Shown piece by piece: positions 17,988 to 33,218 of a stretch of 40,022 nucleotides of DNA. Source of the DNA: Thermoplasmata archaeon (GTDB lineage Archaea > Thermoplasmatota > Thermoplasmata > Thermoplasmatales > GCA-001856825). Under the pieces are notes generated by a model, which worked only from the letters and a program-made list of their open reading frames with translations, was not told where the DNA came from and did no database searches. Position numbers and translations under genes: made by a program. The DNA is taken from NCBI GenBank assembly GCA_021787125.1, contig JAJYMI010000078.1:1-40022 (forward strand). Reading direction: 5' to 3'. Position 1 is the stretch's first letter. Each line of letters begins with the position of its first letter.

Positions 17988-18890
17988 ATGCAAGAAGAAA
18001 TTGCTCAGGTTCAAGATCTAGAGACGCTTCAGACAAGAGCCCCGTTCCTTATACACCTACCAGACAAGTTTGAACTGAAGAAGGTGACGTACAGGAATGA
18101 GGGACGAAAGTGGGCGACTCTGCGATTTGAGTGCAGAATTGGTGAAGAGAAACTCAGGGTGAAGGAATTCTTTCTAGACTGGTTCTATCCAGGTTTCCCC
18201 AAGAGTTTGATGGATTCCTTTGTCTCGTCCTATTCGAGCGTTAGCAGTGCGACCGTTAAAGAGAGAGTGATATTCTATGGAAAAAACTACAAGGGTAAAG
18301 GAGCCTCTTCTTCTTACTCCCTAGGCACGCAGATCGAGGTCGAGGGTGAAACGGCGGAGAATGTGAAGGAGCTGAGCGAGAGCATGGTTGTTCCATTTAT
18401 CAGCGAAAGGTTCAGAGATTTCCCATTCCATAAACGCTCCTTCTTTGTGAATGGAGGGAAGCCCGAATGGTTTGAGGAAGAGCGCATCTCAAGTCTTTCA
18501 TGGAAGGAGCCGTCAGAGAAGCTGCGCGTGGGCAGTCTCCGTTTGGAATCTGTTGGGTTCTTCAAGGGAGAGAGTCCCACCATCAGAACCATTCTGGTGT
18601 TTTCGGAGGAGTACTACCGTAGGGCCGCGTGGGTGGAGATCGCTTCTACAAATGACCAGACTGACCACTTTGTCTATGACCTCAGGAGGGGAGGAAACTT
18701 TTTCGATCAATATTTTGAGGGAAACCCTGTTGTGGCCTTTAGAAGAGACAGTGGGCCTACTATCGCGAGGTTCAAGGAAGGAAACTTGTTTGTTACCATC
18801 TCACTTTCGCCCATCTTCCAGTATTCTCAAGCCAGAGCCCTGATTGAAGAGCTCAGGAATGCCACAAAGAATCAAGAAAGATTTATCTAA
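17988..18890 (+). CDS. Hypothetical protein, 300 aa
   Basis: Long ORF with ATG and upstream GTGAGAG; no family recognised; no TM segments evident. Confidence 0.75.
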   Translation: MQEEIAQVQDLETLQTRAPFLIHLPDKFELKKVTYRNEGRKWATLRFECRIGEEKLRVKEFFLDWFYPGFPKSLMDSFVSSYSSVSSATVKERVIFYGKNYKGKGASSSYSLGTQIEVEGETAENVKELSESMVVPFISERFRDFPFHKRSFFVNGGKPEWFEEERISSLSWKEPSEKLRVGSLRLESVGFFKGESPTIRTILVFSEEYYRRAAWVEIASTNDQTDHFVYDLRRGGNFFDQYFEGNPVVAFRRDSGPTIARFKEGNLFVTISLSPIFQYSQARALIEELRNATKNQERFI

Positions 18891-19466: not shown

Positions 19467-19736
19467 ATGGTCGGAATAAACGAGATTGCCAGAGACATCG
19501 CCAAGAGTTCCGGCGTATCTGTCAGAAGCGCTGAGTCAGTAATTAGAGGAACCTTCAAGGCTATTGTGACGAACATAAACAAGGGACAGAAGGTAAGAAT
19601 CGCAGGATTCGGAATCTTCTCTAGGAAGCAAACAAAGGCAAGGAATGCAAAGAATCCTAGAACAAAGCAAATCATAAAGGTCCCCTCTAAGAACAAAGTG
19701 CACTTCAGTGCATCTTCGAAAATAAAGTACAAGTGA
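19467..19736 (+). CDS. HU/HTa family histone-like DNA-binding protein
   Basis: 89 aa; GVSVRSAESVIRGTFKAIVTNINKGQKVRIAGFGIFSRKQTKARNAKNPRTKQIIKVPSKNKVHFSASSKIK matches the HU/IHF fold. TATA-like TTTATATATT 20-29 nt upstream suggests a leaderless transcript. Confidence 0.95.
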   Translation: MVGINEIARDIAKSSGVSVRSAESVIRGTFKAIVTNINKGQKVRIAGFGIFSRKQTKARNAKNPRTKQIIKVPSKNKVHFSASSKIKYK

Positions 19737-20040
19737 CCTTCTTTTAATTTTTATTTTTTTATTTCCTTCCCTTCTAGGATTTTCTCATAATCTGCTCTGA
19801 ATATCAATGCATGCAGTCACGGAGCTTTGACTGATCAAGCTTTGCCCGAATCCAAGTCTCTCTCAAAATTTAAATACCGCCATCTCATCCAAACATGCAA
19901 GCCATTTTCGTGTATAGGACAGAGATTTTGAAACAAAGCGGTGCGTAATGCCTGCTTAAGAATAGAGTCTTCTTTATAAGGATATATCCGCATTTTTCAG
20001 GACGGCAATCGCACAAAGCAAGATCAAGCAGTAAGCGAAA

Positions 20041-20208
20041 ATGGTTGTGGGTGTTTTTATGAAAACAATAGAGAGTTTGACGGATTTTTTAGTAGGAATC
20101 TTTGTCACGTCCTACTATAGTATCTGCGGAAAAATTGGAGATTGTTCAGACAGGTCTGCTGTATCTTTGGCATTCTCTAACTTCGGAAAAACAGGAGGTG
20201 AAATCTGA
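20041..20208 (+). CDS. Candidate small protein, 55 aa, translationally coupled to the next gene
   Basis: Not in ORF track. Hand translation: MVVGVFMKTIESLTDFLVGIFVTSYYSICGKIGDCSDRSAVSLAFSNFGKTGGEI*. Stop overlaps the next start (TGATG). TATA-like TTTATAAGG at 19973. Confidence 0.45.
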   Translation: MVVGVFMKTIESLTDFLVGIFVTSYYSICGKIGDCSDRSAVSLAFSNFGKTGGEI

Positions 20209-20765
20209 TGGTTTCGAAGTGGAAGATTTATGTCAAAGATAGGGAAAATCTGAGGACCCTCCTCAACCTTCTGATGGCAAACAGAGAAACCGAGGTAACA
20301 ATAAGAAGGAATGAGGGATTGGTTTTATACGTGAGTGATGACGGAACTGTAGGGGAAATTATCCTGTACGCTCGTGAAGAACTAGGCAACAAAATTGAGC
20401 GTGTTTCTCTCGATTCTGATTGGAGGGAGAATGTGTTCCTGTTCAACAAACCGAGACACGTCTTGGATTCTGTATTCCCCTTCTTGCTGGAGACGGCCTT
20501 TGTTTTGATAAAGGGGGATGCAATACACCTGAAAGTTGAGAGGTACCACACCTTCAATCCCTTTAAGAAAAAACGACTCGGTTCCAAGAGCAAGAGAGTG
20601 CTGTACAGAGTAAAGCTGTTCGTTCCAATATTGGTCAGAGACTATTCAAGTAGGAACGGGCGACAGTGTTTAACGTTTGAAAGAAAGAACCACTTGGTAT
20701 TGACAAGCTTTGAGCTGTCATCACTGATAAATGGAGGTGGCACGGATGGATTACTGGCCATATGA
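20208..20765 (+). CDS. Hypothetical protein, 185 aa, partner of HerA-like ATPase
   Basis: ATG preceded by GGAGGTGAAATCTG; 3' end overlaps start of the ATPase gene; no family recognised. Confidence 0.8.
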   Translation: MVSKWKIYVKDRENLRTLLNLLMANRETEVTIRRNEGLVLYVSDDGTVGEIILYAREELGNKIERVSLDSDWRENVFLFNKPRHVLDSVFPFLLETAFVLIKGDAIHLKVERYHTFNPFKKKRLGSKSKRVLYRVKLFVPILVRDYSSRNGRQCLTFERKNHLVLTSFELSSLINGGGTDGLLAI

Positions 20766-22395
20766 AAATGGTCTTCCTTTCCCACTGAGAGAGAAGAGAA
20801 TACGCTTCCCGCCCGAATTCCTGGAAAACCACTCACTCGTTCTCGGAAAGACCGGGACGGGAAAATCAAATCTGCTGGTGCAGCTAATTCGTTTGTACGA
20901 AGAGGCAGGGAAGACCGTCGTGGTGTTTGATCCCCACGGTGAACTGTGGAGGTACGGAAGCCCCGACTCTTCCATCATCACCCTTTCGCCCTATTCCGGT
21001 GAGGACGTTGGCTACCTCAAATTTAACATGATGTCAGTTCTCCCCTACCAGAGCGAGAGAGAAAAGCTGATCAACGAAGAGCTTGTCGTTCAGACTCTAA
21101 AGGACATATTCTCAAACGAATCTGCTTTTTCGATAGGCACCTGGGGACCAAGGATAGAACTGATATTTACGGTAATGACAAGGCTACTGCTGAAATACAA
21201 GATCAGTCCAACCATCCAGGATCTCTCAGATCTACTCTTGAACTTCTACAAGAGGAAGGATTTCGCCTCTTCCCTTGAACCAGAGGAAAAGACTGAGTTC
21301 TTCTCCATCTTCAATCAGGGATATGACTTCATTTCCTCCACCGTCAACAAGATACTGCCACTGATTTCAAACGAAGTTTCGAAGAACCTTTTTTCATCAA
21401 GAGATGACTTCTTCGATATATCCAAATTGAGGAATACTGTCTATGTAGAGCTATCGGGTGAACATTCGCCTTCTTCTCTTTCTAAGCCATTTTCAATTAT
21501 GCTCCTGTACAAGATCTGGAACAATGTAATACTCAAGAGGATGAGAGACATTGTTCTCGTTATGGACGAGTTTCAGATGGTATCCCCTCACATCTCCCAG
21601 AGGATAGTTGCTGAAGGGAGGAAGTTCTCGCTCTGGACGGTTATGGCGACACAATCACTCTTCGGGCTGGATCCCGTCCTTGCATCCAGCATAAAAACCA
21701 ACGTTCACAATTTCTTTCTCTTTCAGCTATCAAATGAGGATGCAAACTTGTTTAGACACGACGGCAGGACGATGAGAAATCCAGACTTCCATCGCTTCAA
21801 TTGTCTTGTCCCCAGAACCGACAGTTTATTCTCCGGAACGACAATTCTGGCCGCCCAGACAAAGGAATTCTCGGTTGACAGGGAGTTTTATGATTTTGAA
21901 ACCGGCAAAGAATGCATTGATCAGGAAGTTCCAGAGAATATAGACCCCGCAAGGTTGAGTCACCTTATCTCACTGGGACTTGCAACCGTTGTGGATGGAA
22001 ACGTTCACTTGGAGCAAGAGTACTTTGAGAAGATAGGTTCAAGACACAAGAGAGGAAGCGAGTCCATGTTTCATAGATACCTTGTGACGAGGTCATACTT
22101 CTTCTTCAAGAAGAGGGGATACGAGGTGTACGAAGGAATAGATTATGACGGGCACAGACCAGACCTGGTGGTGATGAAAGATGACGAGAAGATACCGGTA
22201 GAATGTGAATATTCAGATTTCGAAAAGAAGGGAAGAATAAGAGAGAAGATGAGTTTCTACCCGAATGTGATATTTTCTGCCTTCAGGGAAAGAAAAGGAG
22301 AGTTACCACCCGGTATGGGTCTCCTGTTGATTCCGCCGATAGGCGATCAATCGGAGCCGGAATTTATAGAACCTCAGAAAGAGATGGGTGTGTAG
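20746..22395 (+). CDS. HerA/VirB4-TraG-like P-loop ATPase with C-terminal PD-(D/E)XK-like extension
   Basis: Walker A LGKTGTGKSNLLVQL, Walker B DIVLVMDEFQMV, sensor-like MATQSLFGL; C-terminal HRPDLVVMKDDEKIPVECEYSDFEKKGR. Start at 20746 chosen from SD GGAGGTG (track start 20731). Confidence 0.88.
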   Translation: MDYWPYENGLPFPLREKRIRFPPEFLENHSLVLGKTGTGKSNLLVQLIRLYEEAGKTVVVFDPHGELWRYGSPDSSIITLSPYSGEDVGYLKFNMMSVLPYQSEREKLINEELVVQTLKDIFSNESAFSIGTWGPRIELIFTVMTRLLLKYKISPTIQDLSDLLLNFYKRKDFASSLEPEEKTEFFSIFNQGYDFISSTVNKILPLISNEVSKNLFSSRDDFFDISKLRNTVYVELSGEHSPSSLSKPFSIMLLYKIWNNVILKRMRDIVLVMDEFQMVSPHISQRIVAEGRKFSLWTVMATQSLFGLDPVLASSIKTNVHNFFLFQLSNEDANLFRHDGRTMRNPDFHRFNCLVPRTDSLFSGTTILAAQTKEFSVDREFYDFETGKECIDQEVPENIDPARLSHLISLGLATVVDGNVHLEQEYFEKIGSRHKRGSESMFHRYLVTRSYFFFKKRGYEVYEGIDYDGHRPDLVVMKDDEKIPVECEYSDFEKKGRIREKMSFYPNVIFSAFRERKGELPPGMGLLLIPPIGDQSEPEFIEPQKEMGV

Positions 22396-22733
22396 CCCTC
22401 GCCGAGAAGGGCTACCATTCTACCCGAGTATGCTTCCAGATTTATCCCTTGGAGCTTGAGTTCTGTGTCTATCTTTGCATTCTGAGCGATGAATATACAT
22501 GCGGAGTCAACAACACCGTACCCTACCAGTTTCTTGATCTTTTCAGCCCTCTCTCCGGTGGCACTTGCAAGAAGCAACTCGCTTGGTCCGAAGAAAAGCA
22601 GCTTTACCTTTTCAACCATCTTGTTTTCGGTCATCCTGAGTGCCGAAGTGATCGCCATATCGAATCTCTGCTCGGCCTCTTTTCCACTCATAACGATGTA
22701 GAGTACTTTGGTCATGCTGACTTCATCAAGTAT
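22374..22733 (-). CDS. DsrE/DsrF-like family protein
   Basis: TKVLYIVMSGKEAEQRFDMAITSALRM...VKLLFFGPSELLLA...GVVDSACIFIAQNAKIDTELKLQGINLEAYSGRMVALLGEGYTPISF. Start probably at an internal ATG/GTG of the 22374-22763 ORF. Confidence 0.7.
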   Translation of the reverse strand: MLDEVSMTKVLYIVMSGKEAEQRFDMAITSALRMTENKMVEKVKLLFFGPSELLLASATGERAEKIKKLVGYGVVDSACIFIAQNAKIDTELKLQGINLEAYSGRMVALLGEGYTPISF

Positions 22734-22795
22734 GTGAGAATAATTTTTTCTGTCCTTTTTCAAAAGGATTTTTGTGCAAATCCTGATACAGTTCT

Positions 22796-32850: not shown

Positions 32851-33160
32851 AAAGCCGGGCCACCGACACCAAAGGGCGATAGTAGGATATGGCTACCCCA
32901 TCAATTCTCCGCTCCGTGCCCCCACCGGCATCCGCGGTCCACGTAACCGTTGCTCCCTTCCGGTCCTGGCGGGATTCCCGTGATGACGCATACCGCTCTC
33001 CCCTCCGGGTGAGATGTATACAACCTGGATCTGATGGGACAGAGTTTCGCCGAACATCAAGGGCTCACACCCTCAAGGTTGCCTTCTATATCGGCTGTCG
33101 CCCTCGCGTATAGACGGTTTCGAGTAACAGGAGACGCCTACCCTCCCGGCCAGCCCGGCG
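32851..33160 (-). ncRNA. ffs: Signal recognition particle RNA (7S, archaeal)
   Basis: Minus strand: 5' GCCGGGCTGGCCGGGAGGGTAGGCGTCTCCTGTTACTCGAAACCG (archaeal SRP 5' domain), helix-8 core GCCAGGACCGGAAGGGAGCAAC, ends GCCCGGCTTTT. Terminal GCCGGGC/GCCCGGC pairing; TATA-like CATTTTAAT about 25 nt upstream. Confidence 0.96.
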
Positions 33161-33218
33161 TACTGTCAATCAATCTTCCGATTAAAATGTTTGTCTGAAC
33201 TAGAAAAAAATCGGTAAA

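Follow-up and report, generated by a model that had tools for sequence, protein, structure and literature searches.

The window (the whole stretch of 40,022 nucleotides analysed here, which is one entire contig of a draft genome from an order that includes Cuniculiplasma) contains a three-gene locus which we interpret, with a probability of roughly 0.55, as encoding a DNA translocase-nuclease that resembles the coupling proteins of type IV secretion systems (T4SS) and would act in chromosomal DNA exchange or processing. It is an ordinary-looking core region holding an unusual version of a known machine. Chromosomal DNA exchange and processing in wall-less acidophilic archaea are largely unknown, and the locus offers a small gene set: a predicted pump to which a nuclease-like domain is fused, a probable separate N-subunit and a strictly co-occurring partner. 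The features are as follows.

17988–18890, forward strand: gene for a 300-aa protein of probable RseB/MucB fold, the order-wide companion of the ATPase
19869–19876, forward strand: TATA-like box TTTAAATA, aligned in congeners, ahead of the non-coding element
about 19901–19965, forward strand: conserved non-coding element, possibly a small RNA or leader
20059–20208, forward strand: smORF of 49 aa, a probable translated leader coupled through TGATG to the 185-aa gene
20208–20765, forward strand: gene for the 185-aa protein, probably the ATPase's N-terminal domain as a separate polypeptide, in 14/15 family genomes
20746–22395, forward strand: ATPase of 549 aa (554 aa from 20731), a VirD4/TraG-like FtsK-HerA pump with a PD-(D/E)XK-like C-terminal domain
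22039–22365, forward strand: nuclease-like tail domain (aa 437–545 in 554-aa numbering), with invariant residues and profile matches

The three overlapping ORFs of the initial annotation are all present (20041–20208, 55 aa; 20208–20765, 185 aa; 20731–22395, 554 aa), as is the TGATG at 20206–20210, which joins the smORF stop with the start codon of the 185-aa gene. The longest-ORF start of the ATPase at 20731 gives a 35-nt overlap with the 185-aa gene, while a start at 20746 gives 549 aa and the 20-nt overlap originally described, preceded by GGAGGTG at 20733–20739 inside the upstream gene. The latter start is likely the true one, because relatives begin with MD[YF]W and the upstream gene ends immediately ahead of it in two genomes (G029 and G034); ATPase residue numbers follow the 554-aa form throughout. 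The pairing of the 185-aa gene with the ATPase, on which the initial annotation had made its reading depend, recurs in 14 of the 15 family genomes; all 15 have the ATPase, and in the remaining genome the contig ends within that gene. Intact copies of the two genes always overlap, the called ORFs sharing 8 to 38 nt. In one close pair, substitutions at codon positions 1/2/3 number 5/5/19 in the 185-aa gene and 13/11/94 in the ATPase, and this third-position bias, together with recurrence wherever the sequence of a family genome is intact, places both genes beyond chance. The 3' end of the ATPase is overlapped by 22 nt by a convergent gene (22374–22763, reverse strand), whose conserved product, ~113 aa long in relatives, has no credible match in Pfam; this gene is found in most family genomes.

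The ATPase family is present in 78 of the 117 genomes of the order. In a diverse alignment, all 16 members match the Pfam families DUF87 (best 2.8e-18) and TrwB_AAD_bind (best 1.6e-14), with TraG-D_C matching 11/16 (3.6e-9) and T4SS-DNA_transf 9/16; the best E-value of each of these four betters that of the VirB4-type model AAA_10 (1.8e-4). Profile matches in the PDB are to HerA and TrwB, and the Walker A and B residues, the TWGPR and EGRK motifs and Q308 are invariant or nearly so across 63 homologues. Judged by these profiles, the protein is placed in the VirD4/TraG-like branch of the FtsK-HerA pumps. It is neither CedB nor CedD, scoring 22.6 bits against the CedD equivalog cut-off of 600. 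Hydropathy reveals no transmembrane segment in the ATPase, the 185-aa protein or the smORF, and since an N-terminal transmembrane anchor is absent the ATPase is better described as working like a type IV coupling protein than as a classical VirD4. Cuniculiplasma divulgatum S5 (1,938,699 bases, 2,016 genes) has a homologue at 757 kb, where gene 791 is expected; equated by position and gene number, it is expected to be CSP5_0791, which appears in the relevant section of the S5 genome paper as a TraG/TraD/VirD4 ATPase of type IV secretion, arCOG04816 (PMC5155288). In genus g16, judging from the start sequences read, an ATPase homologue lies 39 nt downstream of an apparent archaellum or type IV pilus operon (L067), and a gene of similar size is found at the same 39-nt distance in L150.

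The C-terminal tail of the ATPase contains five residues (H448, D478, E491, E493 and D496) that are invariant in 63/63 homologues, and a sixth, K506, that is kept in 60/63. Its order of elements as predicted from sequence, helix-strand-strand(PD)-strand(ExE)-helix-strand, reads as the core order of PD-(D/E)XK nucleases. Scans with single members gave weak matches to MTES_1575 (4 members, best 0.0067), the CoiA nuclease (4 members, 0.071) and Hjc (1 member, 0.15), all three being nuclease families of the PD-(D/E)XK type, while the tail profile had nothing significant in the PDB. The usual catalytic Lys is replaced by Glu in the ExE motif. BamHI likewise has Glu in place of the usual Lys, and the replacement therefore does not imply lost activity. 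The DNA translocation or processing function originally suggested is well supported, by the HerA/TrwB-type motifs and by the invariant PD-(D/E)XK-like site.

With moderate confidence, we regard the 185-aa protein as an N-terminal domain that has become detached from the ATPase. Bacterial relatives of the ATPase, mainly from Patescibacteria, share a WGPRLE motif and mostly have ~330–440 aa before Walker A, and the segment that ends their N-domain is resembled by LTSFELSSLI near the C-terminus of the 185-aa protein. Direct comparison of the 185-aa profile with the bacterial N-domain was not significant (P=0.037). Despite this, the identification is favoured by a two-link profile chain through family f2, in which 218–221-aa genes overlap the ATPase from upstream: the 185-aa family matches these genes (P=1.9e-4, 0/200 shuffles), and a 143-column match (P=0.0028, 0/200 shuffles) links them in turn to the bacterial N-domain. 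The final ~8 residues of the 185-aa ORF overlie the ATPase start and are missing in two congeners, and are therefore probably not functional. AlphaFold2 models the protein with a pTM of 0.78, as a first domain of b-a-b-b-a-b (ferredoxin-like) order and a mixed second domain, and Foldseek of this model returned generic ferredoxin-like matches, none under 0.001. Weak PDB profile matches to archaeal uL23 (E=0.005) were taken to reflect the common ferredoxin-like fold, and uL23 was rejected as a homologue. In most genera of family f6 no comparable N-domain gene adjoins the ATPase. The Thermoplasma-like genus g29 (L070, L136, L149) has 206–208-aa genes whose profile score was not above shuffles, and these were rejected as the same N-domain; the gene there overlaps the ATPase start, and a replacement N-domain subunit is possible. 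A bacterial precedent for a split N-domain, in L099, was checked and found to be unsupported.

An ORF does run from 20041, as first annotated, but the conserved start of the smORF lies at 20059 (49 aa), with GAGGTGTTTTTATG in congeners. An ORF of 42–51 codons with a conserved start context occurs in nine congeners and two other genera; the frame is open up to the stop/start junction in 10 of these 11 genomes, the eleventh sequence being cut before the stop, and in uncut relatives it ends at or near the first codon of the 185-aa gene, with stops interrupting the other frames. In two close pairs, substitutions by codon position number 9/9/6 (17 nonsynonymous versus 3 synonymous codons), with neither codon-position bias nor a purifying signal at amino acids, unlike both larger genes. 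The smORF resembles either a translated leader or a small protein that evolves fast; its translation seems to be kept, though not the peptide itself, and the simplest interpretation is that of a leader ORF serving translational coupling. Further upstream, a TATA-like signal does occur near 19973, as reported, but lacks conservation; the box kept in congeners is TTTAAATA at 19869–19876. Between this box and a T-run lies the non-coding element (CCATTTTCGTGTATAGGAC...GCGGTGCGTAATGCCTGCTT.AGAATAG), which is kept across the genus, with its core retained in two other genera, has one copy in the genome and is without an Rfam match; it is a possible small RNA or leader.

The picture of a self-contained three-gene module misplaces the emphasis, as the sequences of the smORF and the 185-aa gene are specific to the family and the order-wide companion of the ATPase is the RseB-fold gene 1.8 kb upstream, which the initial annotation had overlooked. 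Homologues of this gene occur in 54 of the 117 order genomes, every one of which also has the ATPase (Fisher p=1.5e-14, a value that ignores relatedness and is therefore indicative only). The two genes lie within 4 kb on the same strand in 35 genomes, and the RseB-fold gene is directly upstream of the ATPase in genera g17 and g19 and directly downstream in g22, g24, g30 and g31. AlphaFold2 models the protein with a pLDDT of 91.9, and RseB/MucB entries lead the Foldseek matches (best E=1e-4, prob 0.95) with whole-chain TM-scores of just ~0.17–0.25; no match under 0.001 was found in a viral fold library, nor a consistent one among defence profiles.

Housekeeping genes lie on both sides of the locus, as originally noted: formate-tetrahydrofolate ligase, formiminotransferase, aminotransferase, epimerase, CoA-binding protein and HU genes upstream, and PTPS/QueD, QueC, TFS-like zinc ribbon, Trm5-like, prenyltransferase and TiaS genes downstream. 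The neighbourhood is syntenic within the genus, and its downstream half is syntenic across the family. The G+C content does not shift at the three genes, with no composition break. The conserved pair, the synteny and the flat G+C together indicate that the locus is core, vertically inherited DNA. The HU-type bacterial DNA-binding protein gene (19467–19736; PF00216, 3.6e-21) adjoins the locus and is conserved in congeners, and an archaeal SRP RNA is found at 32852–33161 on the reverse strand (RF01857, 162 bits). The initial annotation had allowed that the ATPase might prove to be a universal single-copy housekeeping gene of known function; it is widely conserved and mostly single-copy, but its function is unproven.

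A role in DNA exchange is our best single guess, with DNA repair as the main rival and defence or recent mobility unlikely. In repair or end-processing of the HerA-NurA kind, the pump would supply its own fused nuclease with chromosomal ends or stalled forks, with no DNA exchange involved, and such a role would accord with the HerA-like motifs, with a nuclease-like domain in cis, and with a core-genome, vertically inherited and mostly single-copy gene that is unlinked to secretion genes. We nevertheless consider it rather unlikely, since the TrwB/TraG models fit better than the HerA equivalogs (25 bits against a cut-off of 970 for the full-length NCBIfam model), the genome has other HerA-size DUF87 proteins (485 and 498 aa), and rad50, mre11 and nurA were not found among the neighbours examined.

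That the locus is instead a domesticated remnant of an integrated conjugative element, in which the coupling ATPase survives without its transfer apparatus, was suggested by the initial annotation and is improbable on present evidence. The VirD4-like family itself, with haloarchaeal plasmid relatives at 24–26% identity, is compatible with such an origin, as is the large number in Patescibacteria of VirD4 homologues that are not near virB4 and may have been exapted (PMC12102498). Against it, the neighbours examined include no integrase or relaxase, no mobile genes lie beside the locus, the window contains no tRNA integration target, the G+C is neutral, and no relative of the locus was found in phage records or viral contigs; presence in 78/117 genomes also points to long vertical inheritance. 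Any domestication must be ancient, so this explanation concerns origin rather than present function. The defence module also suggested there, here an anti-phage translocase-nuclease like HerA or mad8 of the MADS system, is very unlikely even though the PADLOC mad8 profile matches the ATPase (E=3e-14) and pump-plus-nuclease architectures are known in defence systems. The PADLOC matches are confined to the common motor, while credible defence matches are lacking for the 185-aa protein and smORF, as are consistent ones for the RseB-fold partner. No defence genes lie beside the locus and, beyond the mad8 match, the neighbours examined include no methyltransferase, kinase or other gene of the mad1–mad8 set; the locus is moreover syntenic in genus and family rather than variable.

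Under the preferred reading of DNA exchange, the 185-aa protein and the ATPase would form two halves of one VirD4/TraG-branch (type IV coupling protein-like) DNA pump. A ring of ATPase subunits, as expected from the superfamily, would hydrolyse ATP and move DNA, and the 185-aa protein would supply the N-terminal domain that in bacterial relatives is fused before Walker A, with co-translation through the overlapping start keeping the two in step. The PD-(D/E)XK-like domain (D478/E491/E493, with H448, D496 and K506 nearby) would cut or trim the moved DNA, and the RseB-fold protein may be a regulatory or substrate-handling partner. The complex would most likely handle DNA for a chromosomal DNA-exchange machine, type-IV-secretion-like and of the Ced/Ted kind, that the organism encodes at another place in its genome. 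On contig 73 of that genome (G000; L156:8673–14894) there is a run of genes for pilin-like, 8-TM, 2-TM, VirB4-like ATPase (NCBIfam 4e-23), CedB-like ATPase and Gins23-like proteins, and an orthologous cluster is present in G036 and G038, where the G038 pilin orthologue matches T4SS_pilin (5.6e-5). The window ATPase is not physically linked to this cluster, the two being on separate contigs, and VirB4-like ATPases also occur where the window ATPase is missing (genus g18 and parts of family f3); a tie between the two is plausible. More tentatively, the Thermoplasmatales may possess an undescribed chromosomal DNA-exchange system, made up of a Ced/Ted-like cluster and an unlinked translocase-nuclease with a separate co-translated N-subunit under the control of the RseB-fold protein. 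If true, one protein of this system would both pump and cut DNA. With its N-domain probably divided between genes, the motor would also join CedB/CedD as a second archaeal example of such a split among VirB4/VirD4-type motors.

Each of the known systems that the locus resembles differs from it in identifiable ways. HerA-NurA also combines an FtsK-HerA ATPase with a nuclease, but the nuclease-like domain here is fused and of the PD-(D/E)XK type with ExE, and the N-terminal barrel of HerA is unmatched. CoiA and MTES_1575 domains share with the tail a common PD ... [IV]xExExSD ... R..K..Y arrangement and weak profile matches, whereas the tail here is fused to a predicted DNA pump and its nuclease role in archaea is putative. 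The VirD4/TraG-like ATPases of Patescibacteria have the same Walker A/B and WGPRLE motifs and pump fold, and an N-domain that the profile chain suggests is related, but in them the N-domain is fused, often after a hydrophobic segment, and no PD-(D/E)XK tail was seen in the proteins inspected. CSP5_0791 of arCOG04816 belongs to the same order, with the S5 homologue at the matching position, and is described as a type IV secretion component (PMC5155288); the section concerned gives it an annotation line, which does not extend to a nuclease tail, split N-domain or RseB-fold partner. Finally, the genome has a cluster, from pilin to CedB-like ATPase, similar to those of the Ced (Sulfolobales) and Ted (Thermoproteales) DNA import systems (PMC9905601, PMC11868833), and in CedB and CedD, too, VirB4 N-domain features are shared out over a pair of proteins (PMC11868833), whereas the window ATPase corresponds to neither and is located elsewhere in the genome.
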